DNA from: Amyelois transitella | Taxonomy: Eukaryota > Arthropoda > Insecta > Lepidoptera > Pyralidae | DNA: 64,000 bases | Assembly (NCBI RefSeq): GCF_032362555.1 | Contig: NC_083523.1 | Location: 8,035,501-8,099,500, forward strand | Reading direction: 5' to 3' | Shown: one piece after another, positions 26,431 to 59,819 of the stretch | Position numbering within the stretch: position 1 is the stretch's first letter | Layout of the letters: each line of letters opens with the position of its first letter | Notes under the pieces: model-generated | Seen by the model: only the letters and a program-made list of their open reading frames with translations | Told to the model about the DNA's origin: nothing | Databases searched by the model: none | Position numbers and translations under genes: made by a program

Positions 26431-29400
26431 TTAATAAGTTATGTGAACAACGTCGCCGCCGACTGAGAGTAGACATTGGCCCTGAAAGATAAATGTATAA
26501 AATCCTATTAGAAATTTTATATTTATGCGCAAGACAAGACCGATGTACGAGTATCAATTTAAAGTACGGGTACCGTGTGGTTCTCGAAACTTAAGATTAG
26601 GATCACTCCTATCTGTTTCTCATGGATGTCGTAAAAGGCGACTAAGGGAATATGTACGTACATTCATTAAGTGCATCGTTTACCGTGATTGTTTTATTTC
26701 AGACAGGAGTCGCTTCGTGTAAAAACCTGACTCACTCATCCTGGGTCATGGTCAAAATCACACTTCAGGCTTCGTTCGAGTGGATGAGGATGTGATCGGG
26801 CTTAATACCAGAAAGAAAAGGACACGAGACCCGATTAAATACGAGTCAAGATTAGTTTAGTTTTTTTTTAAATAAATATACTTAAAACGAATTTAGCGTC
26901 ATCTAACAAAAACGAGACAAACTTATTACAAAAGGTAACTAAATAAAACCCACTCACAAAAAGCGACAAACCTGGCGCAATCTACAATAGAATACAGGTT
27001 TTTTCGTAAATCCCGCGAGAAATGTTGTTTTTACCGGGATGTAAAGTACCCTATTTCCTACTCTAGACCCTTATTTATATATTGATATTTTAAGAAGATT
27101 AATTCAGAAGATACCCCGTGATGAGGTAACAAACAAAGAAACACACTCCCTGGCACCTTTACAATATTAGTTGGGATGAAGTTAACAAACCTCTTGTAGG
27201 ATTCTCAATAAGGACATATTAAAGTAATAAGTTTCTCACCTGGTTTTTATGCGCGTTGTCTTGTAACATGAGCTGTGTGATGTAGAAGGAAGTCAGTGCG
27301 TTCCCGCCGAGGGCTGCAGTGTATGCTCTGAGTATAGCCATTACCTACGGTAATAAAAAAATAAAAATTACAAATAAAACCGACACTAATTTTACACACA
27401 GACAGACAGACACACACACAGGTACATTTATAACACATCTCTTTTTTGCACCGGGTTTTAAGCTAAGGACCCTTGCGGGGTGAACAGTCTCGCAAAAACT
27501 GAAAGGCCACGTATTCCTTTATGGCTAAATGAAGGTATTGAAACTCAAAAGCGAGAGATTGCTAGTCCATCGCCTAAAAGTAGAATATACCTACAGAGAC
27601 GTTAAACAACAAAAAAAAATATAACTATAACAATTATCTTAATTTCTCGTCATTTCTCACATTTGATCAGTCTATAAATTTTGCTTTAAGTAATTGTGTA
27701 GGAAAGTACACCTATCCCTACACAAACATGCAAAACGATGCTAAGCCTCCCAATTTTTTAACGGTGGTAATTTCTTGTACGAACATAACAACAAAACCTA
27801 AGAGTACAAATTCTCTGAGCACCGGCCCGGTATTAAAATTGCATATATACGAATAATTTCTCGTCATTTCTCATAGTTTCTCAACATTTCTCATCTTATT
27901 CTCACTTACCTCACAAGTAAAAGTATGTAGGAACCCGCTAAGGCCGCCCAATTCTCTAACAGCGGTAGTTTCTCGCACGAACAACAGCCGTAAAGCGCAA
28001 ACTCGCCGAGTGCCGCGTGCGCCGCTTATGTAGCTTAATGACGTAAGAGAAACCATTGTCGGGGCCTGAAACAAATATTTTGGATTAACCTAATCGGATT
28101 AATTTACAATTTTTTTAATTATTGTCTATTAATGAACTTGGGACGAATACAATTGTTTTGAATGTTTGCAAAAGTTTGCCGCGTTACAAACTTACATATA
28201 AATAATGCATTTATACTTTCAAACTGTCGGTCTGATTTTGATAAAATTTAAAAGGTATGTAAGTTCTGTCTGTCTGTCTGAGATGTGTGTTAATTTTTCA
28301 GTTCGTAGGGTAACAAAATCGGTTAAGTGGTTTTTGTAAATAATAATTGTAACATGTGGTTCACGCCATTTTCCCCTGGATGTCGTCAAGAGCGACTAAA
28401 AAACTTGGCATTCTTCTTTTAGGCGATGTCCTGGCAACCTGTCACTATTTGAATCTCCATCATTAAGCCAAACAGCTGAACCTGCTCCTATCAGTCTTTT
28501 CGAGACTGTCGATTCTTGTCTACCTAGCACGGGATATAAACGTGATATGTATGTATGTGTAGATAGATAAAAACGTTTATTCAGTTGCTACAGACACAAA
28601 ATACAAAAATAAACATAACATTATAAAAAAACACAGTTGAGTTGCATTTGCGTGCTGCAGCAAGTAGAAAAGGTCCATAACTCAGCGGAATTTAGCGTAG
28701 TGTATGTGTGTAATAAATAAAGTGTTTACGCGAAATCTGAACAGGATAAATGAGGCACTGACCTGTCCGCCCGCAGCGGCGCTGTCGGCGGGCGGCGCGG
28801 CGGCCGGCTCCTCGTCCAGCTGGAAGATGTCGTCGTCCGCGTCGCCCGCGCCCGCGCCCGCGCCGGGGGCGGCGCCCTCGGGCTTCGGGGGCTCCGCCAG
28901 GGGGAGCGCCGCGCCGGACACTATCAGCTGGATCTCGTCCTGGGGGAAACGAAATAAATAAATATTTACGGGACAAATTACACAAATTGAGTTAGCATCG
29001 AAGTAAGTTCGACACTTGTGATATGTGGCGATGTTTAGTGACGTCACACGACATCGGCCAATCGCAATAAGGATACGACGCGCTCAATCAATAACAGCGT
29101 GTGGCGATATCTCAAAAGTCATGCGCCACCAAGCCATATACAGCGCCTATGAATAAATCGCGATATTAAAAATTACACGGATTGGAGCATAAGTACAACC
29201 GACTCAAAATCGTCTAGCCGTATAAAAAGAAGCAGACGTAGTTTTACTATACGACAAAATTAAGCACCAATAGTATATTACCAATATATATTCACGCCTC
29301 ACGCACACACTCTCACGAATAGTGAGACAGTCGGCCGCCATTAAATCATGAATTATCTCATTTTCTGTCACTCACACAAGCATACAATGCCGCCATTACG

Positions 29401-31478
29401 ATGCTTCACTTTTTTTCAAGCCGCACAACGTCTGCCTTTTACCTACGTACATACATACAAACACATAGTCACATCTATATCCCTTGCGGGATAGATAGAC
29501 CCCGCAGTCTTGAAAGACTGAAAGGCCACGTTCAGCTATTAGGCTTAATGATAAAATTGAGCTTCTAATATTGACACATTGCTAGCCCATCGCCTAAAAG
29601 AATCCTACGTCTATGGTTTAAAAAGAAGCCCTTATTATTTATACCTCAGGCAGCTCCAGCTGGAAGCGCGGCGCCAGCATCGCACAGGGCTGCAACCTGC
29701 GCAGTTTGTACGTGACGCCGTCCAGCGCCCGCGACACGTGGCGCTCGGCCGCCGGCGACGCCGCGCCGCCTTGACCCGACAGGGTCAGTCTCGCTCGCCA
29801 CACCTAGGTTTAAAGAACTTTATTTCCTCATAAAGAATTAACAATTCACTTACTGAGAAATTCACAATATACATCATAAGTATAGCAAGACAGTGAGCGT
29901 ATATAAAACAAAAATTAAAATAAGGAACTATGTAGGGTAGGAGTCACAAAAATCTGCGTCGACTGCTAGTTGCACATCGGGCAACCACGGATCTAAAGTT
30001 CACAGAGCGCAATCAAACAATACATACATACGGTCACGTCTGTGTCCCTTACGGGGTAGACAGAGGCAATGGTCTTGAAAGACCAAATGGCCACGTTCAG
30101 CTGCTCGGCTCAATGATGGAATTGAGATCCAAATAGTGACAGGTTGCTAGACCATCGCCTAAAAAAAATGGATCGCAATTTCATAAGCCTATCCCTTGGT
30201 CGCCTTTTACGACATCCATAGGAAAGAGATAGAGTGGTCCTAATTTTTTTTTCTTTTGGTCTAATTCTTTTCGTTTTGACTGACAACGACAAAAATAAAA
30301 AAGGTTATCATATACCGAGAAAAAAAATATTCGATATATTTGTAGATTGCTAGTTGTTGTATATGTGTAATTATCCTTGTAATAAAGGCAGACTATAACA
30401 CATACCTGCGCAAACGCATGCGGCGGTGCGTTCCTGGCGGCTCTCATCGCCGGCGTGAACACTTGCATACGGGAGTGAAGGCGACGCGATGCTAAATTGC
30501 GGGCAGTCTCAACCTAGAATCGATTCGAAATCATTAACAATATACGATAAAGAGTCTATAAATCGAACAAAAGGAGGAAAAGAAAAGAGTCAAATAAAAC
30601 TTACATCTTCCGCCTCGTCTAATTCAAGGACACACGCGTCTTTATCCGCGCTTAGTTCTAAGATAGGTGGCGCCACTTCTTCGGACTCTATTTCCGGTAG
30701 GGCGCCATTGGTATTGTGTTCCGGAACACCTGTCACAGATAGTAAAAAGATCACAGTTGTAAAAGATAAAATAATATAACTCTTATCATAATTCATGACG
30801 CGAATTATACAAATTAAATTTAAGCAAATAACTTACCGACATCATATCCATTAGCGATCTTGTTCGCTGTAAATGTGTCCCAAAGGGCTTTTTGTATTTC
30901 AAGCGCTTCCTTTTCATTCTCTGTGGCCTGCAAAAAATATAAATAACTATAACATTTGAATGCATGTACTAATGTGTGTAATTATCTCATCATAATGAAT
31001 GTATGTGGATATTGTGTCTAGAAAACCGTGCGAGAAACGATGTTGTGTTGGTTGCTCCAAATCCGTAAAGGAATATTGCTTGCGCGTTTTAGAATTTTCA
31101 CTCTAATTGGCTTTACAATAGGGCGTCATCTGTTTTCTTGATGTTCCCTATTTCATTTTCACTGACTCTGGCAGTCATTTTTGACTAAAGTAGTCACAAT
31201 CTCATTTTTGACCGTAAATAAGTGATGGAGTCATTTTAGTCCATAAATGAGTGATGAGAGTAATTTTTGACCACAGCCGCAGCGCCGCGCCACTATCCAG
31301 CGCGACCACGCAGCGCTCGCCCAGCGACATGCGCGTTTAAGTGTGTGTGTGTGTGTGTGTGTTTGTGTGTGTAAGTGTGTGTGTGTGTGTGTATGTGTGC
31401 GCTGACCTTGACAGCGCGACCACGCAGCGCTCGCCCAGCGACATGCGCGTTTAAGTGTGTGTGTGTGTGTTTGTGTGT

Positions 31479-31518
<40 letters not shown>

Positions 31519-31626
31519 TGACCTTGATGGTGGGCGGCGCGGGCGGCGGCAGCGCGCACAGCCGCAGCGCCGCGCCGCTCGCCAGCGCGACCACGCAGCG
31601 CTCGCCCAGCGACATGCGCGTTTAAG

Positions 31627-31688
<62 letters not shown>

Positions 31689-34600
31689 CGCTGACCTTGA
31701 TGGTGGGCGGCGCGGGCGGCGGCAGCGCGCACAGCCGCAGCGCCGCGCCGCTCGCCAGCGCGACCACGCAGCGCTCGCCCAGCGACACGCGCGTTTGTAA
31801 GTTGAACAGCGCGTTTGCGCCCTGAAAAAATAAACGCGAATGGAAAATAGCAAATTTCAAATTATTTTATTTCAATAACAAGTTAAAATTGGTTGACGGG
31901 AAGAAATCCTGATTGGAATAAGTCCGCCATTGTACATATTCTTCTACATCTAATAACTGTTTTGTAATTTATTATTATTTCTCTTTACGTGCAATAAAGA
32001 GCAAACAAACAAACAATTCCTAATAGTCTTTGTTACGGGAGCAATGATTATTGCTCGACCGCCATCAAAGGGAAATACAACCACCAGGCTGGTATTGTGC
32101 CTGGAGAATCGCGTGACAAACGATGTTTTGTCGGAGGTTTTATATGTACGAGTATATGGTATATATGCGTGAAATCTTTGCTTGCGAGATTTAGTCACTT
32201 CGCTACTATTTGCTGATAGCGTCGATCGTATGATTGGTTGTTGTGACATGTGGTGTAGAGATGTCCGCACTAAAAGGGATAAAATTGCAGGTAAAAGTTA
32301 GTCTCAATAGATAAGTGAATAAAAGGGTACAAAAAATGGCATACCTGCATCCTCAGCTTGGCAAGCAGTAGCTTATGCAATTCATACTCCAAGAACGGCA
32401 GTTGGTCCGAGATATCCCGAGCCCCGGGTTCGCCGGTAGGGGGCGCGCGTCTAACTCGCGCCGCTACAGAAATAATATCCCTATTAATAAGTAGCTAACA
32501 ATTCTGTATGTACTTAAGGTTTGGCTGAAGATATTTTAATTATTTGTAAATCTTTATAGCGTTTTAAAACTAGAACCTGTGTACGTAATTCTGAAAATAT
32601 TATTTGTCTGTCAATCCCTGAAGAGAAAACAACATTAATGGATAGTTTAATTACCTTAATAAATTACTTCCGATACATTTTCAATTGTTTAAAATAGTGT
32701 AAGATGTTCAGCCGCACTAGGTGTCTGGTCAACATTTGACACCAGTTCCATTATGTCGAAATCCATTTGTAAATAGAACTAGTGATAAGAATCATTATTA
32801 TCAGTAGTTCCATCACGGAACCGTACCATAATACATGTGTCAACGAATGATTTTAAATAAACAAAAATGAACACTGTACGTTTTAATAAGAGTTACTATG
32901 GTTTTGTACTACTCTTTAAAGGAAAACCAACGTGTAGACGGGATGATTGTTTATTTGCAACAGATTCACATAATGACAACTCCTATCAATTGGACAATGC
33001 ATTTGAACATCGAACAAATACAAAGCAAATCCAATTATCGTAACACAAGTCTCGAACTTACTTCGAAGCTAACTCAATCAGTGTTATTTGTCACGCATAT
33101 ATTTATTTTAGTTAAAAAAAATGACAAAATGAAAACAAAAAAACTAATTTACTTACCTACAGCGGTCAACGTGACCGCTTTGGGGTAAGCGACGAGTCGG
33201 GAAGGTTTGGCGCAGGTAGCTAGCAACACCGCTGGTACTTTTGCTCGTCTGTTACATTAAAGGATAGTGTTAAAAACATTTATCATAATCTTAGCTGCAA
33301 AAGTTCCCTTACTGGATGATATAACATAATGATGTATTGTGTCACCTTGGCTGTTCAATCTTTTCATTGACATATTGGTCTTCTGTATTTTGACGATCAT
33401 GCGGTCATCATATACATTTCCAAGAAAGAGGCATGATAATAATAAAAATGCTAGAAGGATTGTTTCAATCTGGAATTTCTCTGTAGAATGTTTACGGGCT
33501 ATGTGGATGAGCGGTACTCCAACTAACAAGTTCTTAAACGAACGAGATGCTTGGACAAAACGTCACCACAAAATAATTACTCTATTTTCATAACTCTATT
33601 CTTAAAATGTTTATTGTATACATATGTATAGTATATGTCGTCTGACTTCCGCATCTTATACATCATATATTAAGCTTTTATTTACATCGGAAAGCCACCA
33701 GATGGTTTAATGATAGAATTCAGATCCACATTGTAACAGAGAGCTAGGTAATCGCCCACAGAAAATCAAACATAAATAAGCATTTTCCTTGATGGCCTAT
33801 TACCCCTGCGCGGGGAAAGTAGCGATTGGGACACACAAAATATGTTTTTTTTGCTACCAGTACACTATGTCTGACCTCAGCAAGTCAAAGACAAACGAGA
33901 AAAACCTAGAAAGCCTGAAGGATAAATTTCTGTAAACAGTATTACCGGCACCCCCCACAGGCCCCCAGCTCGGCCCTGTAGGGCCCCGCGGCGGGGGAGT
34001 ACGGCACGTGGGCCACGGAACACCAGTCATGGGGCAACGACTCTTCTGGGGGCTTCGTACCGTTACCTGGGAAAACACATATCTGTATAAATCTTGACCT
34101 CTTGTTGTCTATGGTCTATCTTCCTCATGGCTTTATGGTCCCGGTTGCATCCTCGCCACTCTGAAGAGGAGTGTGCCTTTGACCGTGGACCCTGGATTGG
34201 GTGAGCTCAGGGTATTAATTTGACTCTTATGTTCTATACAAATTTGATATTAATCATGTATTCGTTTATTTACGTAAGATGCGAAACTGCACCATAAAAA
34301 AACACAGATTTCATAAATAACAGTTAACGAAAAATGCCTACTAATTCCATCGAGACATTCCAATGTAGTATGCTTTTGGTCCATTAGATAACAATAATTC
34401 AATTGTGATTTTTCTTACCAGTGACAGTGGGTTCGAGATCGGCGTTGAAATCACAGTCGAGGTTAATGACCGCCGCGGTACCCGATGCGGATAAAACGCA
34501 TACGTCTTCGCTGCAACAATATAGGACTGTAAACCATTTGTGTCAAACTGCAGCCAACTACACAAAGGTCTGTGGCAACATCACTAACGTCACACGCCAG

Positions 34601-37600
34601 CAGCCAATCACAGCGAAGAATCTGACGGGTTAGAGCATTTATTGATTGTATTTGCGACCTTCGACTGAACATCGTCTGTCGCGTGGATGGCCAGGTATCA
34701 CACCAGCCTGGGGGAAGGGCTATTTGGCCAACCTTTAGGGGATCTCCATCCATCCGTGAGGCTCCCGGCACCAATACAAAAAAGAATAGGACCACTCCAC
34801 TTCTTTCCCATGGATGTCGTAAAAGGCGACTTAGTGATAGACTTACATACTTGCGATTCTTATTTTAGGCGATGGACTAGCAACCCGTCACTATTTGGAT
34901 CTCAATTCCATCATTGAGCCGAGCAGCTGAACGTGGCCATTCGGTCTTTTCGTGACTATTGTCTCTGTCTACCCCGCAGGGGATATAGACGTGACTATAA
35001 GTATGTATACATACATACATAAAATCACGCCTCTTTCCCGGAGGGGTAGGCAGAGGCTACCTCTTTCCACTTGCCACGATCTCTGCATACTTCCTTCGCT
35101 TCATCCACATTCATATCTCTCTTCATGCAAGCTCGGCGGTTTTGGGTACTTTTGACCTGACCCTTTACCAGGACGTTCTTAATTTATATGTATGTATGTA
35201 TATATATATATAGAGTCACCATATGTGCGCGGTGTCGCTGTAGGCCAGCACGGCGTTGCAGCGCAGCGCGCGCGCGTGCGCCCGCAGCTCGGTGCGCAGC
35301 TCCGCCCACCACGCCGCGCGCGCCGCGCTCTCGCCGCCGCCGTCCACCAGCTTCACGGAGCGCGCGCACACCGTGCCCCCTGCGCACACGCATACACACA
35401 TCGCAATCACACTCCTCTGACGTAGGCGGAGACTTGTATCATTTCATTTTTTGATTTTTACTCTTAATGTAATAGAATGCCGGTGCCGTGTGGTTCCCGG
35501 CACCAACAGAAAAAAGAATAGGACCACTCCATCGCTCTCCCATGGATGTCGTAAAAGGCAACTAAGGGGTAGGCGTAGTAACTTGGGATTCTTGTTTTAG
35601 GCGATGGGCTAGCGACCTGTCACTATTTGAACCTAAATTCTATCATTACCCCAAATAGCTGAACGTGGCCTATCAGTATTTTCAAGACTGTTGGCTCTGT
35701 CTACCCCGCAAAGGATATAGACGTGATTATATGTGAAATGTGATGTAATAGAATAGATTTATTTTCAATGTGATACGTCGTATCCAATTTTGAAGTTCAT
35801 TTTCAAAATTGAATACAACGTTTCAGTTTTCGACGTCGCATCACTTAAATCTAATTATATCTGCTGCTGTTTCCAAAGCGCATGTGTAGAAGATGAGGCG
35901 GATCAAACTACAGTGCAATATTTTCACCGGACGTGAATTAACAAACATAGATCTCTTAAATCTAAATCGTGAACAAATGCACATTGTCTACATTAAAAAA
36001 AAAGAATGAATATAAAACTACTGATTTCAATATATAAAATCACACTTCTTTCCTGTAAACAGAGAACTACATCTCATTTTATTTTTGATTTTTACTCTTC
36101 ATACAAACTTCTTTTGACCGAACTTTTGCTAGGATGATCTTTTTGACCTGACTTTTGCTAGGATGTCCCCGATTTGATCAATGCTTGCTAGGGAAAGTCG
36201 AATAAGTCATCATTTTTCAACACGCCGGGTTCAAGTTTCGGGACGCACAAGGCTTATTTTCGACATTTGTTTATTTACTTTTCCCATTCTTCATACACTT
36301 CGCTTGCACACCCAGGTTTAGTAATAAAGTTATATGAATAATTAACATACTAAAACCAAATAATGTAAAACAGTGTCACACACTTGCAACACAAATTGAA
36401 ATCTTTACAAAAGTATATCATAAAAAATTACACCTTCTTCATCATCAAATTCAAAATAAATTTATAATTCTGAAAGCAACAAAAGTAACGATATTAAAGA
36501 TGTATGTGTAATATATATTTGACAGCTGTCAAAACGGGTTTCTTATTTCTGGACGAACTGAAGAAATTTATTTTAGCAGTGTTGTGCTTACCGATATGCA
36601 CTATGAATCCAGGCGGGTACTCTGTCATGGTCAAGAACGGGTACTCCAGCATTTCCAAGTTGTTGCTGTTCATAGACGGCCGTAGGATGGCGCCACCGCC
36701 GCTCCCCACGTTACCCGCTGAAGTGTTTAGAGAGCTGCCTAAAAGATGACGTATAATACTTAGATATAACATTATGTCAAGCATAAGAATTAGATTTGTT
36801 AAAAATATCATAAAAGGTATCGCTTAATGACGTCAAAATTACATAATATACCTACTACCGCTGCCAAAACGACATTCGGACACGGACAATCACAAGACAC
36901 GGCGGAACAATCTACTACATTAAAAGGTTTGTCATATCGATATCTATGCATGCTACTTCTTGCGTCCTGTCTTTTTTAATTTATTTATTATAATCATTAT
37001 TTAGTTTTTTCTATTGTGTCCTCAGCTGTTAAATTTCTAAGCGCTGGATCCGCTTTTGTAGACAGAAATTAAAGTGTTACGAGTAATGATTAGATAAACT
37101 GCGAAATTGACTAGTAGTAAAAGCCGCCGTTTACATGTTTTTGCAACGAAGCCAGCAACATATTTTGCGGTCGGCTGTAATGTATAATCAAATATTTAGA
37201 CAAAGTGGAAGCAAAACACAACGTACCCTTCGGCGTAACACTAAGATCGGAGTCCGAAGATCTCCTATGTATCCCCATAGGCGCCGACGTGGCATTCAAC
37301 GAAGAATTCTGATTGGTCGGCGGTGGCGCCGGATCTTTCCCGCCGTACGACTCGTGCCGTGCGTGTCTCGGCGAACCCTTATCTTTATCGCTTCTCACTT
37401 CCCGATCCCTGTCAACATTGCACGCTGCATGCAAGTTATCGCACACACTAGCACTGTTAGTCTCACAATCATCGACACCTTCTATATCTAAACTCTCAGT
37501 ATGGTCAATACTACTCTCAGGGAGCGAAGGTATGGTCTCTAACGGTGCGCCACTAAGTATGGGATGAAAGTGCTGTAGGACCGGCTTGGTTTTTGGCACG

Positions 37601-40600
37601 GTTTCATTGGACATTTTGCACGAATCGATCGAATCTACGCTGTTTTGTCTAACTAATTTGTTTTTGTTCCCCGTTGCAGTTTCATTGGGCGTGATCATTA
37701 ATGACTGGACCTTCTCGACAAGCATTGTTTCCATTGCGGTATTTATAAGACTGGGTTCACTATCAGTGGTCGTTATAACTTCTTTATTGTTATCTGATTT
37801 TTCATCAGTGTATTCAAGAATTTGATGTACTGACTCTGTATCATTGGTGGGATCTAAAATGGTTTGCACTTTATCCATAAGTATTGTTTCAACGGCATTT
37901 TTTATAAGGTTAGGAGCCTCTTCAGGATCTTTATGAGGTTCGAGCAAATGTTTTATTTTATCAATAAATGTTGATTTGGCACCAGATTTGACAGAAAACA
38001 TGGATATGTTGTCATCTGAGTTTTTCTTCACTTCACACAAATCTACTTTACCATTTTTAATTGGACTATTATTACTTAGTTCTTTTGAAGAACCGTTCGA
38101 GGATTCGTTAATTGTACACTCTGTATTGGTTCTACTTGTTTCATGATCAACACATGATAGCTTGTCTGATTTTGTTTCAAAATCGAACTGTTTAGATTTA
38201 GTCACGTCAGGAGTCGATGGTATAAGCAAAGATTGTACTTTATCTAATAGAATAGTCTCCATAGCCGTGTGAATCAATCCTGTGGCCTCAGGTGACCTAT
38301 TTCTTGTTTCTTCAACTTTCTCTAATTTTTCATTAACATCATTAAAAAATTGACTATTTCCTCTTAAAGGTACTGGTTCTGGAGACGTCGGTGCAAGAAG
38401 TGACTGCACTTTATCTATAAGTATTGTCTCCATAGCAGTATGTACCAAGCTACATGGTTTTATATCTCGCTTTTCTTTTTTCTTTATCGAATGTTGTCTA
38501 TGTGCATGAGAGTCGTCAAGGAATAAACTACCACTCAGTGAAGCTCTAGAAACAGGTTCAGATCCAATGTACATGGAAACACTAGGACGTGGTAATTCAT
38601 CACTTTTGTGAAACGTTCGTTTAGCTTCAATCCCTTCTTTATCTAAAGACATTAAGTCAGCGTAAGAGAGAAAAAGGGAACCTAATACGGTTTCACTTGG
38701 AGCCTTTGAAGTAACATCAGAACTTGAATTTGGTTGACTTAAAGGTTTAACAACTTCATGCTTTTTCTTTGGCAACAGGGAATAATGTGACAAACTTTTG
38801 ATCATATTACTTTTAGATATTTTTGAAAGCTGGCGTTTAATGCGTCTGGATGAGCGATATACAAAGCTTTTGCTTTCAATCGGGGAAGATGGGGCACTAA
38901 CGCTTTTGGATTTCCTATGGGCAAAGGGATTGTGGAACTTGAAATGATGAGTATTAGATTTAGATGCTACAAACGTGTTTGCTTCCGCGACGCCAGATGT
39001 TGATGGGACATTCAGATGTTCAATCTTCGCAACTCTGTTGGTATCAACCGCATCGTCAGTTTCCGAAGATTCGGTTTTACTTTCTTGACTTTCATATTTA
39101 TTTTGGGGTCTAGGAAAAGTTTCTAGTATGTTTAGTTTCTTTTCCATGTGTGCAATAAGAGCCGGATTTATTTCTCGACTTAAAACAGACTGCACTACTG
39201 AGCTTGTTGTTTCATAAGACCGTTCATTGTCAGTTCTCAGATCTGAACTTTCGTCGTCTTCTTCATCAGAACTAGAGTAAATTTCAGAACTATCTCCTGA
39301 GAGTATTGAAGATACAGATCCATGAAAATCTGGTGCTATAGGTTTTAGGAGGGCATCACTTCTAACTCCTACGGGGGTTGTTGGACATGATTCAGATATT
39401 TTCCTCTCGCGTTGTACTGTTTCTGGATTGTCATCGGTAATATTTGTTAGAGAAGAAAACATAAGTTCAGGAATTTTCTTTTCAGATTTGTTATCTTGTG
39501 TTTCGGTATTAGATTTTTTTGCTTTGTCCTCATCAGATATATTAATTTGAGGTTCCGATTCACTAGTCCGCCTTATAGTGGAATTGGGAGATGGCTCAGA
39601 ATCTTGAGTTTCAGCAATACAGGCTAAACTGGTATGAGCATGAATGACGGATCTTGCCAGAATAGACGCCATACCGACGCCTTCATCTAATTTATTTACG
39701 AAAGCCTTCTTAAATTTAGGTTTCTTTAACTTTCTCAATTTTCTGAACTCATTTTTAATGTCAATCAGAGATATTTTCGAGGTATCAGACGAATTAGATT
39801 GTATTGAAACAGAATCGTCTTGCTTATCTGATTTACGCGAACGAACGCTGCTGAGACGTTTAAAAAACATGTTTGGTTTAAATTTCTTTATCTTTTTAAG
39901 AGGGCTACTCGTATCAGAGTCTCCATCGCCGTCACTACGATTGAGTAATTTGTTCAAGTCAGTCTGATCGTCATGAATGTGTCTCAGACTTTTATTAGAT
40001 ATAAAATCATCTTGATATAAGGAAACAGTTCCTGCGTAACTTTTAACACTGGATTGTCTCGTTAGTTCTGCGCTTTTTTCATCATCGTCAATAATATCCT
40101 GATCATCGAAGAGAGAAGATGTTCTGGGGTTGAGAATACTGAGAAATCTTTGTAATTCTTCGGGATGCGTATGAAAATATTCGTTTACATCAGTTATACT
40201 CTCCGTATCGGTCGACAAAATGTCCAAGTACTTTCTTAGCTGTCTATTGACGGGTAAGACGAAGCGACACAACACACCATGCAAACACGTATTCATAAGT
40301 ATGTTTATACAATTTGCATTAAGTTATTCTGGTTGCAGCTTCACGACATTTAAAGCCTATGCCATATTCCCTTAGAGTTAGGTATATTTATAGCTGTTTA
40401 AAGCAAAGAAAAATATTTAAAAAATTTGAAAAATACCATAATAGAATTTTTTTTTTTCAAAAGACAATATCATTAAATATTGATTGTGATCATAAAAAAA
40501 CTGATAGAAATACGAATAAATATTTACGCTACTGTAGTAGATCATATGTATGTATGTAAAATAGTTAAAAATATTATTAACCATATTTTACTTACTGCTG

Positions 40601-43600
40601 GGTGCAAGGTGGTAAGTTGATCGGTTGACTAGGAGTCGGGAGTGGTGTTATGCTGACGGCAGTACCTACAAATACATGATTTAAGTAACATTGTCATCGG
40701 AGAATCTATGATCCAAAGGTTAAGGTTAACTGAATAAAAAAGCTGAATGCACAGGTTCAAATCCTTTTTATGTATTTCTTATGTAGTTCTGAGGGAAAAC
40801 ATCGTGAGGAAGAACTTAGGGTGTGAACGTGTAACCATAATTTAATATGGGTTAGGCTCCTCTGCAAACGTTGCGGAGGTCAGATGGGAATCGCTTTGTG
40901 TAAAAACGTGATCAAACCAATCGATTATGATACATACATACATATAATCACGCCTTTATCCCTTGCGGGGTAGATAGAGCCCACAGTCTTGATAAGACTA
41001 GGCCACGTTTAGCTGTTTGGCTTGATGATAGAATTGACATTCAAATAGTGATAGGTTGCTAGCCCATATCCTAAAAGAAGAATCCCAAGTTAATAAGCCT
41101 TTCCCTTTGTTGCCTTTTACGACATCCATGGGAACGACATGGAGTGATCCTATTCTTTTTTTATTGGTGCCGGGAACCACATGGCTCTCGATTATAATAC
41201 TTAGTACGGTACGCTCTGGGTTCAATTTTCCAAAGGTGGGGGTAATACCAGAACTAATAGGAGATGAAGGTCCCCATGTAAAGGTTGCGGAGGAGGACAG
41301 ACGAGATCGCTTGAAAATACCTGACCTACAACATCCAGGGTCATGGCCACGGGCACATTTCCAGAGAGGTGAGTATGCAATCGGGACTAACCATATGTTT
41401 AATATAATTTGTATTGTGCAACCTCTTTTCTATTTTATTCAGAATGTGTCATAACTGGCCAGTTACAAAAAAAGAAAAAGAAAATTTTTAAGTGTGCATT
41501 TGATTTCTTTTTACAATGTAATATCTAGTACAAAATCAAATTGTTAAAACATTATTGTATCAATAAGTTCAGCGGTTTATTACAGTGCATATTTAAAGTT
41601 AAACCAAAGTGCAGTTTTACTTCATCCCAAGAGCATCCCCAGTTTATTTTCATATCTAAGTTTTACTTTTTATAGAGTGCTTTACCGTCTTTAACACCAT
41701 AAAAATGATGATGTAGATACAGTGGTCCTAGCAGATAGATAACTTGAGCCACCACCCATTTACCAGTCAAAGCGAAGAGGCTTGAGTTGTCACGGGAGCC
41801 GAGAGGGTATCTTTCAGGCCAACTATATATTATATATGTATATATACGGGACAAATTAGACAGATTGAGTTAGCCTCGAAGTAAGTTCGAAACTTGTGTT
41901 ACGAGATACTAACGCAACGATACTATATTTATAATAAATACTTATATAGATAAACATCCAAGACCCAGGCCAATCAGAGAAAGTTCGTTTCTCATCATGC
42001 CCTGGCCGGGATTCGAACCCGGGACCTCCGGTGTCACAGACAAGCGTACTACCGCTGCGCCACAGAGGCCGACAAAACTGTACTTGTATGCTGCTTACCG
42101 ATAGCCCTGGCGACTACACCGGCCTCCCCTTCCAAGTCGAAGTCTTGTTGGTACCCCACCACGGCATTGGCCCCTAGTTCCGCCGCTTTTAGACCAACTA
42201 GCCGTTGTACCTGGGGAGTAGCGACTGTTATTGTACTAAAATATTAAATTCGCCTTTTACGACATCCATGGGAAAGAGATGGAGTGGTCCTATTCTTTTT
42301 TGTATTGGTGCCGGGAACCTCACGGCACGAAATCTATTTACATTTACAACATACTAACTAATAGACCGACACACCACACCGTTAATCCTGAGCCGCTGAG
42401 ATTTCGTGTTATACAAGTTTCGTGTAGGTATATGTACAAATTACCTGGTTGTACAAATTATCTCAATTCTATCATTAATACAAATAGCTGAACGTGGCCA
42501 TTGAGTCTTTTCAAGGCTGTTGGCTCTGTCTACCCCGCAAGGGATATAGCCGTGACCATATGTATGTACCTGGTTGCTAAATTTGATGAATGCGACCTGC
42601 CTCGCCATAGATGTATGTAGAGATCGTAGCAAATGAAAAGATGCGGTGTTTGCCTACCTCTCCAGAAAAGAGGCGTGACCTAGCCCATAAAAAGCCACTG
42701 CCGGACTAAGGTCTCCCCAGAAAGGGGGGGGATTTTACCCATCACCACGCTGGGCAAGCGAGTTGATGACCGCAGTGTCTATTGATTATGGACTATTTTG
42801 TCATATCTGCCCACCCCCCAATTATTCCCTTATATGTATGCTATAAGTAATATTGTTTATTTATTTATTTTTTTCTTCTTATGTAACTGTTAACAAAATT
42901 TTGAAATGTATTTAAACTGCATAAGTACACAACGAACCTTTGTGGTTTTAACCTAATGCATTATGTGTACCATTGTAATTGTTGGTTTTTTTTTGTACAT
43001 ACATACATACATATAGTCACGTCTATATCCCTTACGGGGTAGACAGAGCCAACAGTCCCGAAAAGACTGAATGGCCACATTCAGTTGCTCGGCTTAATGA
43101 TGGAATTCAGATCCAAATAGCCGCAATCGCAATTTTATAAGCCTATCCCTTAGTCGCCTTGTACGACATCCATGTGAAAGAGATGGAGTGGTCCTATTCT
43201 TTTTGTATTGGTGCCGGGAACAACACGGCTTTTTTTTTTGGTAAAGATAATAAATAAATAAAAAATAAAAAAAGTGAAGATTACCTGGTTGCTAAGTTTG
43301 ATGAAGGCCACCTGCCTAGCCTCATTGGAGGCCCTGGGCGTGCGTATCTTGTCGATCCACTGGTATTCCGGGTCATCGTTCACCACCAACTCCTCGACGA
43401 AACCGTGGATGGATGTCGCTTTGTAGCCGGGGGGTATCATTGGACCTGTGGGAAATATCACAATCAATCGAATTGTTAAAAAAATCAAGAACTTAAAGAT
43501 TTGAGATTCTTCTTGTAGACGATGGGCTAGTACCCTATCTTTTTTTCTATAACATACATACATACCTACATATGTATAAACACGTTAAGCTGTATGGCTA

Positions 43601-46600
43601 GAAGATGGAATTGAGATATAAATAGTGACAGGTTGCTAGCCCATCGCCTAAATGAAGAGTCCCAAGTTTATTAGCCTTACCCTTAGTCGCTTTTTACGAC
43701 ATCCATGCCAAAGAGATGGAGTAGTCCTATGTTTTTTTTTCTATTAGTGCCAGGAACCACACGGCACTCTCAAATGATGACAATCTGTTACTAATTAACT
43801 AACTAAACTTCAAATAGTGACATATGAATCTCAATTCTATCATTAAACCAAAAAGCTGAATTTGGCCTTTCAGTTTTTTGATGACTGTTGGCTCTGTCTA
43901 CCCCGCAGATGATATAGACGTGATTATATGTTATGTTCCGTTCATCATTTAGAACTAGTCAGTAGCTTTTACAAAATCTTAAAAATATTTATTTACACAC
44001 AGCAACTCTTTTTCTTAAGTTGGTTAAAAAAGTAGGGCAGTAACCCGCAAATTCATTCAAACTCCATAATCCAACGACGTAATTCTAAAAGCAAATTTAT
44101 CAACGGCGCCATTAATTTTACTAAAAAAAAACAAAACTGAAGGGCTTTTGCGTCGTTTTCGCAAACAAATAATATCCACAAACATTTCCTTAATGCCAGA
44201 TTACCCGACGCGACAGATGGTCCTAATAGTTTGTTATCGGACGCGAATTTGGCGCGACGTCAAGATTTTACACTATAGGTACATCTACGAGTGCTAATCA
44301 TAAATGAAATTCTTGCGCAAATATTTGGGTACTAAATATATTTGCTAAACAAAGCTATACTTTTAAAAATATCGGATTCAATTTTGCGTTTATTCTATAG
44401 GTTATATTCTATAGGTATCAAATCTATGTCCGGATATGTCTTATCTTCAATAACTTTGATCACCTAACATAAGTTACAAAAAAAAACTCACAATGGAAGA
44501 ATTGCACGCCGCAACTGGATGTCTTGTTGTTAAAGTCCGAGAACAATCAACTTCGACAATCACGTTATCTTCCCTCACTTTGATCACGTAGAAGAGAGTT
44601 ACCAAATATGAAATAGCATCCTTAACATGGAATACCGACATTTCTCTCTAACGGATAGTCCCTCACTTTGATCACCAAACGTAAGTTAAAAAAAAAAACT
44701 CACAATGGAAGAACTGCACGCCGCAGCTGGAAGTCTTGTACTTGTTGAAGTCCGAGAACAATTCCACTTTGACGATCACGTTCAGGTGTCATTTGACCTA
44801 AGTCCGGATAGGTATGTCTTATCTTCCCTAACTTTGATCACCAAACATAAGTTACAAAAAAACTCACAATGGAAGAACTGCACGCCGCAACTGGATGTCT
44901 TGTACTTGTTGAAGTCGGAGAACAATTCCACTTTGACGATCACGTTCAGGTGTCATTTGACCTAAGTCCGGATAGGTATGTCTTCCCTTCCCTAACTTTG
45001 ATCACCAAACATAAGTTACAAAAAAACTCACAATGGAAGAACTGCACGCCGCAACTGGATGTCTTGTACTTGTTGAAGTCGGAGAACAATTCCACTTTGA
45101 CGATCACGTTCAGGTGTCATTTGACCTAAGTCCGGATAGGTATGTCTTATCTTCCCTAACTTTGATCACCAAACATAAGTTACAAAAAAACTCACAATGG
45201 AAGAATTGCACGCCGCAGCTGGAAGTCTTGTACTTGTTGAAGTCCGAGAACAATTCCACTTTGACGATCACGTTCAGCTCGCCGCGAATGCCGTGCATCG
45301 TGTCGAACACCGGGATCCAGCCGGAGAGCACCGCACCTTGAATTTGTACAAACATACATACTACATATGGTCACGTCTATATCCCTTGCGGGGTAGACAG
45401 AGCCAAAAGTCTTGAAAAGACTGAATATATGGCCACGTTCAGCTATTTGGCTTAACGATAGAATTGAGATTCAACTAGTGACAGGTTGCTAGCCCATCGC
45501 CTAAAAAAGAATTTTTTAAGGGATAGCCCTTAGTCGCCTTTTACGACATCCATGGGAAAGAGATGGAGTGGTCCTATTCTTTTTTGTATTGATGCCGGAA
45601 ACCACACGGCACCGAATTTTGAATTTGAATTTGTAAATGTACAAAAATGTTTATCTCCTTCTATGGAAGCCAATTCACTGGAGAATGAAAGACAATGCGT
45701 TTTAACCTGTCCTTTTCAGACTTTGGGAATTCCCTATTCGTTATTTATCCCAACAATTTGCGTCTCTCTCTCTCTCTCTCTCTCTCTCATCTTTATGTGC
45801 TCCCAGTAGTAGCGATCTCCGCCAGTCCAGCGATCCAGCCGGAGAGCACCGCACCTTGAATTTGTGAATGTACAAAAATGTTTATCTCCTTCTTTAGAAG
45901 CCAATTCACTGGAGAATGAAAGACAATGCGTTTTAACCTGTCCTTTTCAGACTTTGGGAATTCCCTTTTCGTTTTTATCCCACCAATTTGCGTCTCTCTC
46001 TCTCTCATCTTTATGTGCTCCCAGTAACTATAGTAACAACCTGTCACTATTTGAATCTCAATTCTATCATTAAGCCAAATAGCTGAACGTGGCCATTCAA
46101 TCTTTTCAAGACTGTCGGCTCTGTCTAACCCGCGAGGGATATAGACGTGACCATATGTATATGTATATGTATGTATGTGCTCCTAGTAGTAGCGATCTCT
46201 GCCAGTAAATTTAAGCCCTAGGTCCACTTGCACATACTTACTAATAATAAGACTGTTTACATAAAGTAAAACTTTATGTCTACCAGTTTACCTGTTTCTT
46301 TCCCTTAGTCTAAATGTCGCAATTGATAACCAAAAGATAATACTTTTCACCTATTGCAACAATTATGATACAAGTCGGTTAAGGTTCCCTGGGTTAAGTG
46401 TGAAAAAGATCAGGCGGGAGTCGCTCCCTGTTATAACCTGACTTACCCAATTTTGGATCGTGTTCATATGCAGGCCTTGGGGTCTTCTGTAGGAAGGACA
46501 AAACCAGAATACATACATATCATCCACATCTCAAGCGTGGTAGACAGAGCCAATAGTCTTGAACTTCAACTGTTTGACCAATGCCAATGAAAAAAGCCGG

Positions 46601-49600
46601 AATGCTGATTATTTTTTACCAGGTTGATCAGAACACAACTTCACATATTTGTTAAGAGTGTATACGTTGCCAATCTGCTTTGAGCGGACACTCATGCTTA
46701 TTGTGTGTTTAGTGTAGTGCTATATGATAGAGCTTTTTGTTATCGACCTCTTATCAGTGAAACATTTTGTTACATGGGCCATTAGCTAAATAGGCAGATT
46801 GCTCATTAGACGTTTCGCTTTCTCGTTTGTGTATGATGACCAGAGATCGGAATAGGTAGATTGATTTTGTGTACTTGCATCATGAATTACCATAGAAAGC
46901 ATAACATGGATAAGCCTCTTTTCCGGGATTCCATTTCAGTACTTACACTTACAGTAAACTACATTGTCCGCGGGTAACATAGGACTACAATTTACGTGAA
47001 CGAAGTCGTGGGAAAACAGCTACCACTAATATATTCTTCATCCCACTTGTAAAAATTCCGGAAATAATCTTAATAATTTACAAATCCCGCAATCCCGGAC
47101 GGAGGCATGTCCATATTAATATATACGTTTCAGTTCATTGACCCCAATTCAATCTACCTATCCGAACTTTAGTGATGACGCCTTTAGTTAGCTAACGAAT
47201 CCTTACCTCCGTGCCCCCCGGCGGTACTCTTTGCATTGATAGCCTCTCTCGCAAGAAGGGGTGCTAAACTTATGACAACTTTTCCAATTGCATCATTAGC
47301 GGAGTACGTGTCGTGGTCCATTAGACGAAGCTGTAACGGCTCATCTTGTAGTTCTGATTCGTCGACCTGGAAAAGTATTTATTGTTATTTTTGCATTTTT
47401 GAAATGAAAATATTGATAAATGTGTATGCAGAAAAAGAAGTATGCAGGGATTGTGACAACTGGAAACTCTTCCTTTGCTTCATAAAGAGACGTGATGTAT
47501 GTATGTATGCTTTTCCCCCAGGGCGTCAGGTACAAATGATTTTACACGTTAAATTCTTTTCAAATTATGTATTATGTTAGATTTTTATACTATTTTTAGG
47601 TTTGTAATCGTTGGCAGTGACAGAATTTGAGTGGACCGCGAGAAATGAAATAAATACATTACAGTTTTACGACCCATTTACGTTTTCAGCAAAACAATTA
47701 GCCAGTAGGTAATAAATCTTTTCCTGTTTTCATTTCTAGTCCTTTAACTGACTGCCAAATAGTGCTATTTTATCTGACTAGAGAGAGAGAGAGTTATTTA
47801 TTACATTATGTTCTGTAAGAAGTAACTTTGTAGTAATAAGATGGCAGACGGACGCCAGACGTTTACAAAAATACCCACTATGACGACGCACATCGCACGA
47901 GACGATGTCGAACAACAAAATTGCGATAAATTATGAAAGAGTATGGAGGGAAAGGTCGGAGTGGGAAGACCTAGACGAACGTATCTTGATTTTAGAAATT
48001 AAGGACGTCCTGGTAAAGGGTCAGGTCAAAAGTACCCGAAACCGCCAAGCTTGCATGAAGAGAGTTATGAATGTGGATGAAGCGAAGGATTTTATGTATT
48101 TATTTATTTATTTTATTTTATAACACACTAGCAGCTTATTAAGCTGATGCGTGTGTATCCAAAACTTTGGAGATTTTATCTATGTATGTATTATGAAAAC
48201 TAGCCATTGCGTGCATCATCATCATATGCACGCATTTAAGTAAAATTGGTGTCATTCCTGTTCCCAAAAATAAATTAAAAAAAAAAAGAAATCTTGTAAA
48301 GGTTTTTTCTTTTTTTTTAAATAAAAACTATTTTTAAATTTGTTGAGAGGATGGTATGATGTATATTATTATATTTTATGACTGGATTGAACGTGTGTAA
48401 TATCTCCGTTTAGCGAAGTGCAGCATGCCACTGACTGCTAGCTGCTAGTCGTCGGTCGGTAGCACGCATGTTTAATTTATATATGTATTACAAAACAAAC
48501 ACTAACATATAATCACGTCTATATCTCTTGTGGGTAGACAGAGACAACAGTCCTCAAAAGACTGAAAGGCCACATTCAGCTGCTGGGCCGAATGATAGAA
48601 TTGAGATTTAAATAGTGACAGGTTGCTAGCCCATCACCTTGAAGAGGAATCCCAAGCATACATATAAGCCTATTAATTAATCGCATTTTACGATATCCAT
48701 GGGAAAGAGATTGGAGTGGTCCTATTTTATTTTCTATTGGTGCCGGGAACCACACGGCACAAAAAAACAAACAAATATATTTTCTTTATATTTTTTAAGC
48801 TTAAATATATGCAGGATACACTTTGACATAGTTATTTACTATGTTTTTAATGTGACTTACATGCTAATTAAAATTGATTAACTTGAAATCATTGCCAAAT
48901 TATTCACACAACAGGCATTTTAAAAATCAACCATTATAACTGCTACTGCAGTATTAAATCAAATAAAGTGTTTACATTTACATACATACATATAGTCACA
49001 TATATAACCCTTGTGGGGTAGACAGAGCCAACAGTCTTGAAAAGACTGATAGGCCATGTTCAGCTTTTGGGCCTGATGATAGAATTGAGATTCAAAAAGT
49101 GACACGTTGCTAGCCCATCACTTAAAAAGAAGAATCCCAAGTTTATTTAAGCCAATGGCAAGAAAAGGAGTGGTCCTATTCTTTTTTATTGATGCGGGGA
49201 TTCATGATTAACGAAAAAAAAAACAATAATTTTTAAGCATATTACTTGCAAGTGTTATCTATTGGGGATGAAATTAGAACATTAACTGTGCTTTATACAA
49301 TGACAGGTAACTAAATTTACAGATTATTAGTAGAGATAAATAACCTCATTGTTATTCTATGTAATTAAATTGTACTTGATATCTATTAAATGATTTTTTA
49401 TTTAATTTTCATTTAACCTATGTTTAGATCTTACCTCAAACCTATACCATTCTGTACTACTCCAGTGTGGGTTCAAGGACTTCCTGCACACATCAGTCTT
49501 ATGGGTGATCCCTCCAAACTTTATCTCCACAAAAGCATCCGTTGTATCACTAGCTCTGTCCATGACAGGCAAATTTCTACCCGCCAGTACTTTTACCTTT

Positions 49601-51755: not shown

Positions 51756-51808
51756 GTCACGTTTAATCCCTTACGGGGTAGACAGAGCAAACAGGCCGCG
51801 TTCAGATC
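51756..51808 (-). repeat. SINE-A fragment in the nopo 3' UTR
   Basis: CCACGTCACGTTTAATCCCT and TACGGGGTAGACAGAGC, minus strand, between the stop codon and the poly(A) signal. Confidence 0.6.
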
Positions 51809-51818
51809 TGTAGATGGG

Positions 51819-54800
51819 TCATTTATCCTGCATCTTAGCCAACATTTTGCTTATATCCTGGCTGCCATTAGGAGTGGGTCGCTTTAGTTTGTGCTTAGCT
51901 GAAAGTTTCGGGACGCAGCTTTTCAGTGGGCGTTTTGTGGGCGTCGGGAATATGTCCGGTTTCGAGTGGCCTCCTGCAATTAAAATATAATTAAATAAAA
52001 AACGAACGTATCTTGATCAAATAAAGGACGTCCTGGTAATGGGTCAGGTCAAAAGTACCCGAAACCGCCGAGCCTGCATGAAGAGAGTTATGAATGTGGA
52101 TGAAGCGAAGGAAATATGCAGAGATCGTGGCAAGTGGAAAGAGGTAGTCTCTGCCTACCCCTCCGGGAAAGATTTTATGTATGTATGTATGTATGTTAAA
52201 TACAAAAAGGCTTATTTTCAGGGTTATGTAAAGGTAACGTTGTTCCAACAAAAAGCAAATTAGGGAGAGTGATTTAAAATAATTTGGCTCTATATTTTAA
52301 TAATAAAAATTCCTACTCATATTATGTTTGTACATAAAAATAAGATAATAAAATAATAATACTAAACATAAAATTAAATTATAATATATTTATTTTTATC
52401 TAATATTTACAATCGTGAAAGTACTTTAACTTTTATTCCTTCATTCAATTCTTTAACGGCTAAAACAATGCAATGATTTAAAAAAAAATTTGTAGAATAC
52501 AATTTAAGACGTTTTTCGCGCGAGAATTTGTGGTTAGCAGTTTTTTAAACGGTTAAAATGAATATGGCCGGCTTCGATAGCACTTAAAAACTCCTCCATT
52601 TTGGTTCAACTTATATGTGTTTTACAAACCTAATCCGTCATATGTGATATCCATCTGTGCATCGTCGAGGTTAGGCTCGTGTTCCATCGCAAGCGATAAT
52701 AGCTTTGGCTTTTTCTGGAATATGCTAGTGCTGGGTTCTTGCGCCGGTTTCTTCATTGCGATATTCCTAACAGAGTTCAATAGCGCCAATTCTGAAGGCT
52801 GGAATAGATATATAATGTTACCATTATTATAAACTAGCTGTTGCACACGACTTCATTCGCCGACAAACTTAACACGTAAAAGCTGGCACACTGTATTTCC
52901 TCCTTAAGAGGGTTGGGTAGAGTAGTAGTATATACATACATATAATCACGTTTATAACCCTTGCTGGGTAGACAAAGCCAACAGTCTTGAAAGGACTGAT
53001 AGGCAACGTTCAGCTGTTTGGCTGAATGATAGAATTGAGATTCGAATTGTGACAGGTTGCTAGCCCATCGCCTAAAAGATGAATCCCAAATTTATAAGCC
53101 TATCACTTAGTCGCCCTTTTTACGACATCCATGGCAACGAGTGGTCCTATTCTTTTTTTATAAGTGCCGGGAACCACACGACACTTGGGAACCTTAGTTA
53201 GACAAAGTCTGACACATCTGAGAAAACCGCATTTATGTCGGAGCAATATATTTCGCATGATACAATTTTGGACATTAAATTGACACAAGGGCAGAAGTAC
53301 ATTTAAATATTTTAACTTACATACATACATATAATCACATTTATATCCCTTGCGGGGTATTCAGAGCCAACAGTCTCGCAACAACTGAAAAGCCACGTTC
53401 AGTCGAATTGGCTTAATAATGTAAAAATTGCGATGGGCTAGCAACCTGTCACTATTGGAATCTCAATTCTAGCATTAAGCCAAATAGCTGTGCGTGGCCT
53501 ATCAGTCTTTTCAAGACTGTTGTCTCTGTCTACCCCACAAGGGATATAGACGTGACCAAATGTATGTATGTATGTGAAATTGAGATTCAAATAGTGACAA
53601 GGTCGCTAGCCCATAACCTACAAGAAGAATACCAAGTTTATGGTTTATAAGAGGTCGCTAGCCCATAACCTACAAGAAGAATACCAAGTTTATGGTTTAT
53701 AAGAGGTCGCTAGCCCATAACCTAAAAGAAGAATACCAAGTTTATGGTTTATAAGAGGTCCCTAGCCCATAACCTACAAGAAGAATACCAAGTTTATGGT
53801 TTACTTACCTTCAGTTTATTATCAGCCGCCATTTGCTTCGGCCGCTGCTGGAGCACAGTCAACGCTAAACTACTCTGCTTCAGACACAAATATGGCGAGT
53901 CCGAGTCCTCTATAGTTTTCACCATTCTGTCCTGAAAACAAAGATAATGTAAGTTTATCTTTAAAGGTAAATATTATATTTTATGCCGTGTGGTTCCTAG
54001 CACCATTAGAAAAAGAATAGGACCACTCCATCTCTTTCCTATGGCGACTAAGGGATAGGCTTATACACTTGGGTTTCTTTTAGGCGATGGGCTAGCAACC
54101 TGTCACTATTTGAATCTCAATTCCATCATGAAGCCAAACAGCTGAACGTGGGATTATTGGTCTTTTCGAGACTGTTGGCTCTGTCTATCCCGCAAGGATT
54201 TACATAAATGAATCCATGAGGGTACAGAAAAAAATAAATCAAAGATGTTATAAGAATTACTTTTGCTTTTGATTATACATGGTTACCTACATTTATATCA
54301 GAAATTCGCCTTTTACGACATTTACAGGGAAGAGTGGTCCTTTTTTGTTTTTCAATATCAATATAAGTAGTAATAAAGACCACAGTTAATAATAAAGAGA
54401 ATTTTATTTTATTTTTGTAAGTTTGTAGCGAATAAAACGACTGAACTGATATTTACAAAGTTTGGCACAGATATAGAATAGACCTTTGGGAGTGACATGG
54501 GTTACTTTTTTCCGGAATTTCCCACGGGAAAGAAGGGCCGCGCGAAACCTAATTGATACTTATGATGTGTTGTTTTACATTTATTGCAGTTATTCTAATA
54601 CGGAAACTTGAGGAACCAAATCATAATTAAAGGCAGGATTTTTACTTTAATTAGATCATTAAATATGATTTTATTTCATTGTTATCTTGTTAGGAAGTTT
54701 TAAGATTAAAATATTAGAATAAGGAAGTCTTTGTTCCAACCCCCTTTATTACGGCGTCAAAAATTTGACTGTTTGCAATGTTTCTTTATTAAAACAACTC

Positions 54801-59049: not shown

Positions 59050-59819
59050 CTGAAAGATATAAAGTTTTTTTTATGAAACACACTCAGATTGAATTAAAAG
59101 CCATATACCATAAGGATTTTTTTGACCCATACCACTAAGCCCATCCAATTTTCGAGCCACTGATGAAGCTAATGCTTCCCTCTGTGTGGATCGGATTTGG
59201 CAGAGTGGCCTTTGTGAACATAAGTTCTTTGAGCAAATCAGTAAGACATTCCGCAACACACGCTCTTTCCGTGTTTATGCTGACATATATGTAAATAAAT
59301 GACATCAATTTTGCGCGCTCCATTGTATTGGCTAGACAGCTAGGGAAACCGCGTCGAGTAATGTCTCTCTGAGGTTATGATCGATTGTAATTGTAAAAAT
59401 TAATAAGAACCGACATCATAGCAATAGCTATTTCCTTACTTACCCTCACACAACTGCCAAGATACGGTACAACAAAGCTTTTTTAGAGGAGTTTTTCTTT
59501 TTGATCATACCACAAGCAAGCTACCTAAAAAATAACAACACTGTCTCATCCAATCAACTTACAAATAACAACAATTAAACTGCAAACAAAGAAAATCAAT
59601 CTTAAACGAAATTCAAATTCAACACACTAAACGAAACCAATAGTCTAGGAATGGGCACAACGTTGTTATACTCGTCAACGCAAACGTTATAACCGATTTT
59701 TTTTTAATTTTTACCACGATCTTTTCTACGACGTCAAATTCAATTTTGTTTTCCGTTGCGGCATCGTTTGCGGAGAAGTGAAAACATAAACAACGACAGC
59801 GAAAGGAGTGGACAGAGGT

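Follow-up and report, generated by a model that had tools for sequence, protein, structure and literature searches.

A giant exon of C2CD5 in Amyelois transitella with a repeated, constrained helix: a candidate docking array

Why does a gene built otherwise of small exons carry one exon of 3017 bp, and what may a thousand additional residues do in its product? The question is raised by a stretch of 64,000 nucleotides from the lepidopteran Amyelois transitella (contig NC_083523.1, positions 8,035,501 to 8,099,500; in the following the window, to which all coordinates refer). On its minus strand lies the gene of the trafficking protein C2CD5, and exon 7 of this gene (37227..40243, minus strand) is the element in question. 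The original prediction, made from the letters of the sequence, saw in this exon repeated docking sites for one partner, perhaps linked to an Akt-regulated role. We propose that exon 7 encodes a flexible tether along which helical docking motifs form an array, and we assign a probability of about 0.62 to this reading. The evidence is the architecture of the gene, the repetition of a single helix within the exon, and the pattern of substitutions between its copies.

C2CD5 is no stranger to vesicle traffic. It has been reported in GLUT4 translocation and in MC4R internalisation, the mechanism of the latter being called unclear in the passage concerned (PMC12989912). Together with CDK5 and 14-3-3 epsilon it is reported to take part in the control of dynein force on lipid droplets (PMC6335402). 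A butterfly genome paper, in a passage citing a 2018 preprint, names C2CD5 among spot-pattern genes (PMC7202024). A docking array in this protein, if true, could thus be relevant to wing-pattern work.

An exon of 1005 codons between two YbjQ-like domains

A joint reading of open frames and splice sites yields a C2CD5 model which runs on the minus strand from 49614 to 27910 and has 20 exons, all in phase, for 1829 residues without a stop; the 3' end of the gene lies outside the model, which ends at 27910. The 3017 bp of exon 7 provide 1005 whole, stop-free codons. The remaining 19 modelled exons have a median length of 126 bp and a maximum of 180 bp. Given its own base composition the probability of a stop-free exon 7 by chance is 6e-31, and its other two sense frames contain 57 and 143 stops, respectively. 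The exon is bordered by AG/GT splice sites (acceptor ..CCCGTCAATAG/ACAG, donor AAGG/GTACGT), and the frame is kept across the joins with exon 6 upstream (40596..40665, minus strand) and exon 8 downstream (36592..36738, minus strand). The stop-free model and these splice sites confirm the earlier claim of one 3017-bp exon in phase with both neighbours.

The identity of the gene is evident from its domains. Exons 1-5 (42099..49614, minus strand) encode an N-terminal C2 domain (PF00168, E 7.5e-20, residues 3-101) and a first YbjQ-like domain (PF23025, E 5.1e-24). Exons 8-20 (27910..36738, minus strand) encode two more PF23025 stretches (E 4.1e-48) and PF23028, the 'fifth YbjQ-like domain' (E 3.5e-11); exon 8 begins the second YbjQ-like domain. 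PF23025 and PF23028 are Pfam models named for C2CD5, and here both stand in one chain with a C2 domain. From this domain order exon 7 is therefore positioned between the first and the second YbjQ-like domains found. A PF23025 profile search of the whole genome returned three places, all of them exons of C2CD5 (35.2, 42.1 and 43.3 kb in the window); the search was not exhaustive and missed other YbjQ exons of the same gene. The linker between the first two YbjQ domains is probably short in vertebrate C2CD5, as against the 1005 residues which exon 7 contributes in the long form, and the 11-residue segment which ends exon 7 is probably conserved in vertebrates. A long linker would be a variant trait and does not speak against C2CD5 as the identity of the protein.

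Exon 7 itself has no Pfam match above cut-off and no NCBIfam match. The former, together with a base composition unlike that of the neighbouring exons, is what can be said for a separate gene, or for an open frame arisen by chance, within a C2CD5 intron. Yet the phase fits on both sides, the AG/GT sites are in place, skipping of the exon breaks the frame, and the open frame reaches the donor without a stop. A separate gene or chance frame is thus scarcely credible.

One helix in four copies

Within exon 7 a motif of 18 residues occurs four times, always on the minus strand: copy 1 at 38395..38448 (exon residues 599-616, protein residue 865), copy 2 at 38224..38277 (656-673, protein residue 922), copy 3 at 37855..37908 (779-796, protein residue 1045) and copy 4 at 37696..37749 (832-849, protein residue 1098). 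The motif cores are spaced by 57, 123 and 53 residues. Number and spacing are as originally predicted, although the residue numbers given then are all 9 above those of the present model, presumably because exons 1-6 had been modelled differently. Scored by matrices built from the other three copies, copies 1-4 reach 68.0, 68.3, 55.3 and 60.3, whereas the four-copy matrix gives shuffled exon 7 a maximum score of 15.3 +/- 3.5, the highest value among 300 shuffles being 27.0. The four copies are well above chance. Identity among the cores is 50-89% (mean 68%) over the 18 residues, and the 12-residue flanks on either side average 14%. In each copy a Pro follows within two or three residues after the helix. 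A shorter, partial copy of 12 residues (37933..37968, minus strand; exon residue 759) resembles the second half of the motif. It is present as predicted, but its score of 25.5 by the four-copy matrix lies inside the shuffled range, and it is not callable alone; in a repeat comparison of the DNA it appears as a fifth member of the family, 63% identical.

A degenerate DNA pattern of the motif, with up to two mismatches, finds four places in the 327-Mb genome, all of them the exon 7 copies, and its reversed control finds none. (An arbitrary 15-base pattern used as a probe of the genome found two places elsewhere.) At the protein level copy 2 retrieves the four exon 7 copies only, at E up to 10, and the whole exon only itself, at E up to 1. 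With exon and motif matching nothing except the C2CD5 exon among the best candidates scored, derivation from a paralogue of another protein or from a mobile domain was rejected. Searches for relatives by tblastn were negative with 7 and 68 pattern stretches in viral_contigs and with 24 in genome_contigs; these viral and prokaryotic collections are uninformative on orthologues. Motif and exon have no significant match in PDB. Weak PDB and Pfam matches were taken as chance, i.e., tubulin (E 0.18 at best), histidine kinase (0.68) and a bacterial topoisomerase zinc-ribbon (E 0.00032 to 0.041 by piece, at best 20.9 bits against a cut-off of 27). Among the titles listed by searches of the open-licence PMC literature none deals with exon 7 or the motif. 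All this agrees with the earlier statement that no description of the motif was known.

The copies inside this one genome can be compared codon by codon. Over their 18 codons, copies 1 and 2 are separated by 10 synonymous changes (12.5 sites) and 3 nonsynonymous changes (41.5 sites). Across the six pairs of copies the differences per synonymous site (Sd/S) are 0.53-1.2 and those per nonsynonymous site (Nd/N) 0.07-0.27. The ratio of nonsynonymous to synonymous substitution rates (dN/dS) is 0.10, 0.15 and 0.33 for the three computable pairs, dS being saturated in the other three; these rates are rough because each copy has only about 12 synonymous sites. Paired copies are identical at 31-41 of 54 nucleotides, as against 34.0-38.9 expected under random codon choice, and the share of simulations which reach the observed identity or more is 0.14-0.99; codon sharing is near random. 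Because the protein is similar while synonymous sites are largely saturated and codons are shared almost at random, the codon comparison indicates that it is selection on the protein, not on the DNA, which keeps the copies alike. The same saturation and codon sharing speak against recent duplication or DNA-level constraint, and gene conversion would level the synonymous sites too. Copies 1 and 2 align over 71 nucleotides at 73% and are therefore, at the least, likely to stem from a true old duplication. Exon 7 is a genuine coding feature, with constraint on its repeat at the level of the protein.

AlphaFold2, given the four copies as aligned segments of 43 residues, predicts a single helix at residues 13-30, i.e., exactly the 18-residue core. 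The mean predicted local distance difference test values (pLDDT) of the helix block are 90 and 91, the overall mean is 75.4. Exon 7 comprises 20 full blocks of 50 residues, and a charge-hydropathy test places 17 of them on the disordered side. Blocks 501-550, 651-700 and 751-800 are on the ordered side, and the latter two contain motif copies 2 and 3. The linker is rich in Ser. The predicted helix, the disordered blocks and the protein-level constraint together bear out the original picture of a conserved helix in a disordered, Ser-rich linker.

The docking array may work as follows. Exon 7 would add a long, mainly disordered tether, spliced in between the first and the second YbjQ-like domains. 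The tether would display four, perhaps five, copies of an 18-residue amphipathic helix, the fifth one degenerate. All helices would dock to the same folded domain of a partner. One vesicle-bound C2CD5 could then bind several partner molecules, or hold one multimer tightly. Here we infer that exon 7 is part of the mature transcript and that its helices bind a partner in trans. Repeated docking sites for one partner, as suggested earlier, fit a repeated, constrained helix in a disordered-looking linker. The Akt-regulated part of that suggestion finds no support in the site counts: RxRxxS/T occurs once (0.4 +/- 0.6 in shuffles) and [RK]x[RK]xxS/T twice (3.9 +/- 1.8 in shuffles). RxxS/T sites are mildly raised, with 14 as against 9.4 +/- 2.6 in shuffles, and proline-directed sites are not enriched (11 as against 12.2 +/- 3.0).

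Several points weigh against the docking array. Beyond the small number of synonymous sites, there is the reach of the genome searches, which score no more than the top candidates from an initial screen. The input of the helix model was four aligned copies; when a 286-residue region was modelled from its single sequence, the outcome was uninformative, with a mean pLDDT of 37.9 and all residues below 50. Finally, the invariant residues, 8 of the 18 core positions (1, 5, 7, 8, 10, 13, 14, 15), surround the helical wheel, which is more than a helix docking with one face needs.

This last property also fits a helix buried in a bundle, and leads to an explanation in which the helices act within C2CD5: they would pack together or on the YbjQ domains, or drive self-association. 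Invariant positions spread round the wheel are as expected for a helix enclosed on several sides. Four YbjQ-like stretches are matched in the chain, one before exon 7 and three after it (Pfam names one of them the fifth), so intramolecular partners exist. However, the uneven spacing of the copies and their unrelated flanks are unlike a folded repeat domain. We regard an action within C2CD5 as unlikely and prefer docking in trans.

Long and short forms, and the surroundings of the exon

A main transcript without most of exon 7 is possible, though the odds are against it. An internal acceptor at 37408 would join exon 6 to the last 60 codons of the exon (37227..37408, minus strand), leaving a 60-residue linker, and the long form would be an alternative isoform. 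The acceptor of exon 7 scores -2.3, the lowest of 19, and its donor 2.9, the lowest of 20; the acceptor at 37408 scores 6.3 and is in phase. The resulting candidate short form reads through the 20-exon model without a stop and has 884 amino acids. The GC content at third codon positions (GC3) points in the same direction: it is 0.313 in exon 7, 0.592 in the exons upstream and 0.718 in those downstream, and within exon 7 it is higher near the 3' end, shifting near codon 835 from 0.272 to 0.515 (log-likelihood gain 18.2 as against a maximum of 8.2 in 300 permutations).

The splice scores, however, derive from matrices of 19 donors and 18 acceptors of one gene; these omit the sites of exon 7 and therefore favour other sites. 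An acceptor near the end of the exon is unremarkable because four internal AGs score at least 6.3, of which both 38914 (7.1) and 37408 (6.3) keep the phase of exon 6. In-phase introns inside exon 7 can be drawn as well. If the exon is skipped completely, the frame shifts and runs into a stop at codon 275. An open frame together with a constrained motif implies that the long form is translated somewhere. As to the history of the exon, its composition fits an older, GC-richer 3' end which would later have been extended by AT-rich coding sequence; the extension would be old enough for the repeats to have lost their synonymous likeness.

C2CD5 shows further peculiarities. At 44659-45277 in the window the 3' half of exon 3, including the splice donor, is present in 3.8 tandem copies (164 bp, 96% matches); the later copies retain GTGAGT, and ahead of them no acceptor is seen. 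At 31298-31796 exon 14 is part-duplicated in tandem; the GTCAGC donor and a CA/GT microsatellite are included (173 bp x 2.2, 114 bp x 2). Two such exon-plus-donor arrays within one gene are, in our judgement, unusual. Intron 5 contains a tRNA-like match (Rfam RF00005, 36.5 bits; 41998-42069, minus strand), either a tRNA gene or a tRNA-derived repeat. Upstream of C2CD5, at about 51800-59100, the minus strand holds open frames which start like a RING finger and contain coiled-coil-like stretches; they may be TRAIP/nopo-like.

Candidate partners and comparison with known systems

Eight consensus sets of helical motifs were scored against the copies, and two of them are matched in full by all four, a relaxed MIM1 and a relaxed LxxLL. 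The relaxed MIM1, E-xx-L-xx-K-V-xx-[LI], is found at 5 of 5 positions in 4 of 4 copies (permutation P 0.005-0.019). Copies 1-4 are its sole full matches in exon 7, with a mean of 0.29 in shuffles; the partial copy has 4 of 5 positions (P 0.087). As this pattern is matched by each of the four copies but by no other part of exon 7, the partner may have to be sought among MIT domains, for example those of VPS4, LIP5/Vta1, USP8 or spastin, a speculative lead which is more probably wrong than right. In a passage on binding to the MIT domain of USP8 it is stated that degenerate MIM1 variants bind, including two Arg-less peptides which dominated the selection (PMC12057046).

A number of observations count against MIM1. 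The fit is no more than a lead, since the relaxed classes were set after the motif had been seen; several families were compared as well. The strict consensus [DE]xxLxxRLxxL[KR], as given in passages of PMC12057046 and PMC6862464, fails, every copy agreeing with it at 2-3 of 6 positions. The minimal form LxxR-phi-xxL fails too, copies 1-4 agreeing with it at 3, 3, 2 and 3 of 4 positions. In both cases the main reason is Lys in place of Arg; a final basic residue is absent from the copies as well. The Arg is described as central and is kept in the refined consensus (PMC12057046), and changing Arg and the final Lys affected the binding of AQP2 (PMC6862464). Furthermore, the loose LxxLL-type pattern (NR box), phi-xx-phi-phi, is also fully matched by all copies, with 3 of 3 positions, though it is unspecific (P about 0.85; exon 7 has 19 full matches as against 12.6 in shuffles) and was rejected as too loose. 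Rejected, too, were the LD motif [LV][DE]x[LM][LM]xxL, with at best 4 of 5 positions and a permutation P of about 0.6, and the BH3 (3 of 6) and vinculin-binding (4 of 8) consensus sets, which do not fit copies 1-4.

Could the copies be AKAP helices which bind regulatory subunits of PKA, with PKA-type RxxS sites nearby? Six of the seven positions of the consensus LxxxAxxIVxxAIxxA (PMC3682517) are hydrophobic in 4 of 4 copies. Ten windows of the exon have at least 6 of 7 positions as against 2.6 in shuffles (2 of 500 reach 10), and 8 of the 10 overlap motif copies. A looser AKAP pattern matches once, at residue 776 over copy 3 (0.7 +/- 0.8 in shuffles). On the other hand, an invariant Lys occupies the fifth contact position in the common register, and exon 7 has no window with 7 of 7. 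About 17% of permuted copies do equally well, so the fit is explained by composition alone, and PKA anchoring by these helices is very improbable.

Taken to its boldest form, the MIT lead would make C2CD5 of this lineage a multivalent recruiter of proteins with MIT domains (VPS4/LIP5, USP8 or spastin). Its thousand-residue tether, flanked by two YbjQ-like domains, would bear four MIM1-like helices and connect this vesicle protein, with its C2 domain, to the ESCRT machinery; splicing at 37408 would be a switch which turns the array on or off. So specific a scheme is doubtful and less probable than the MIT lead itself. Independent of any named partner, a repeated and selected helix offers an 18-residue bait for partner finding, a good experimental lead.

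Short helices repeated at irregular spacing in disordered scaffolds are familiar from paxillin LD and similar motifs. The docking array proposed for exon 7 is alike in that irregularly spaced short helices sit in a disordered chain, and differs in sequence, with 4 of 5 relaxed LD positions. AKAP helices (passages in PMC3682517 and PMC8339350) are likewise amphipathic, of similar length (14-18 residues) and with 6 of 7 positions hydrophobic in register; unlike them, the exon 7 copies carry the invariant Lys at the fifth contact position. With the MIM1 helices of ESCRT-III tails, AQP2, Girdin and melanophilin, as treated in passages of PMC12057046 and PMC6862464, the copies share the character of a helical short motif, the E..L..[basic]V..[LI] spacing, without exception among the four, and the link to vesicle traffic. 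They differ by Lys for Arg, Val for Leu and the lack of the final basic residue; further, the predicted helix starts six residues earlier, and four copies are situated in an internal linker. The protein itself has the C2, PF23025 and PF23028 domains of C2CD5 (CDP138, KIAA0528) in one chain, yet between the first two YbjQ domains found, where vertebrate C2CD5 probably has a short linker, it carries a repeated helix in about 1000 additional residues. With its repeated, predicted docking helix the exon 7 form is a lineage variant of C2CD5, a protein already known, and not a new kind of system.

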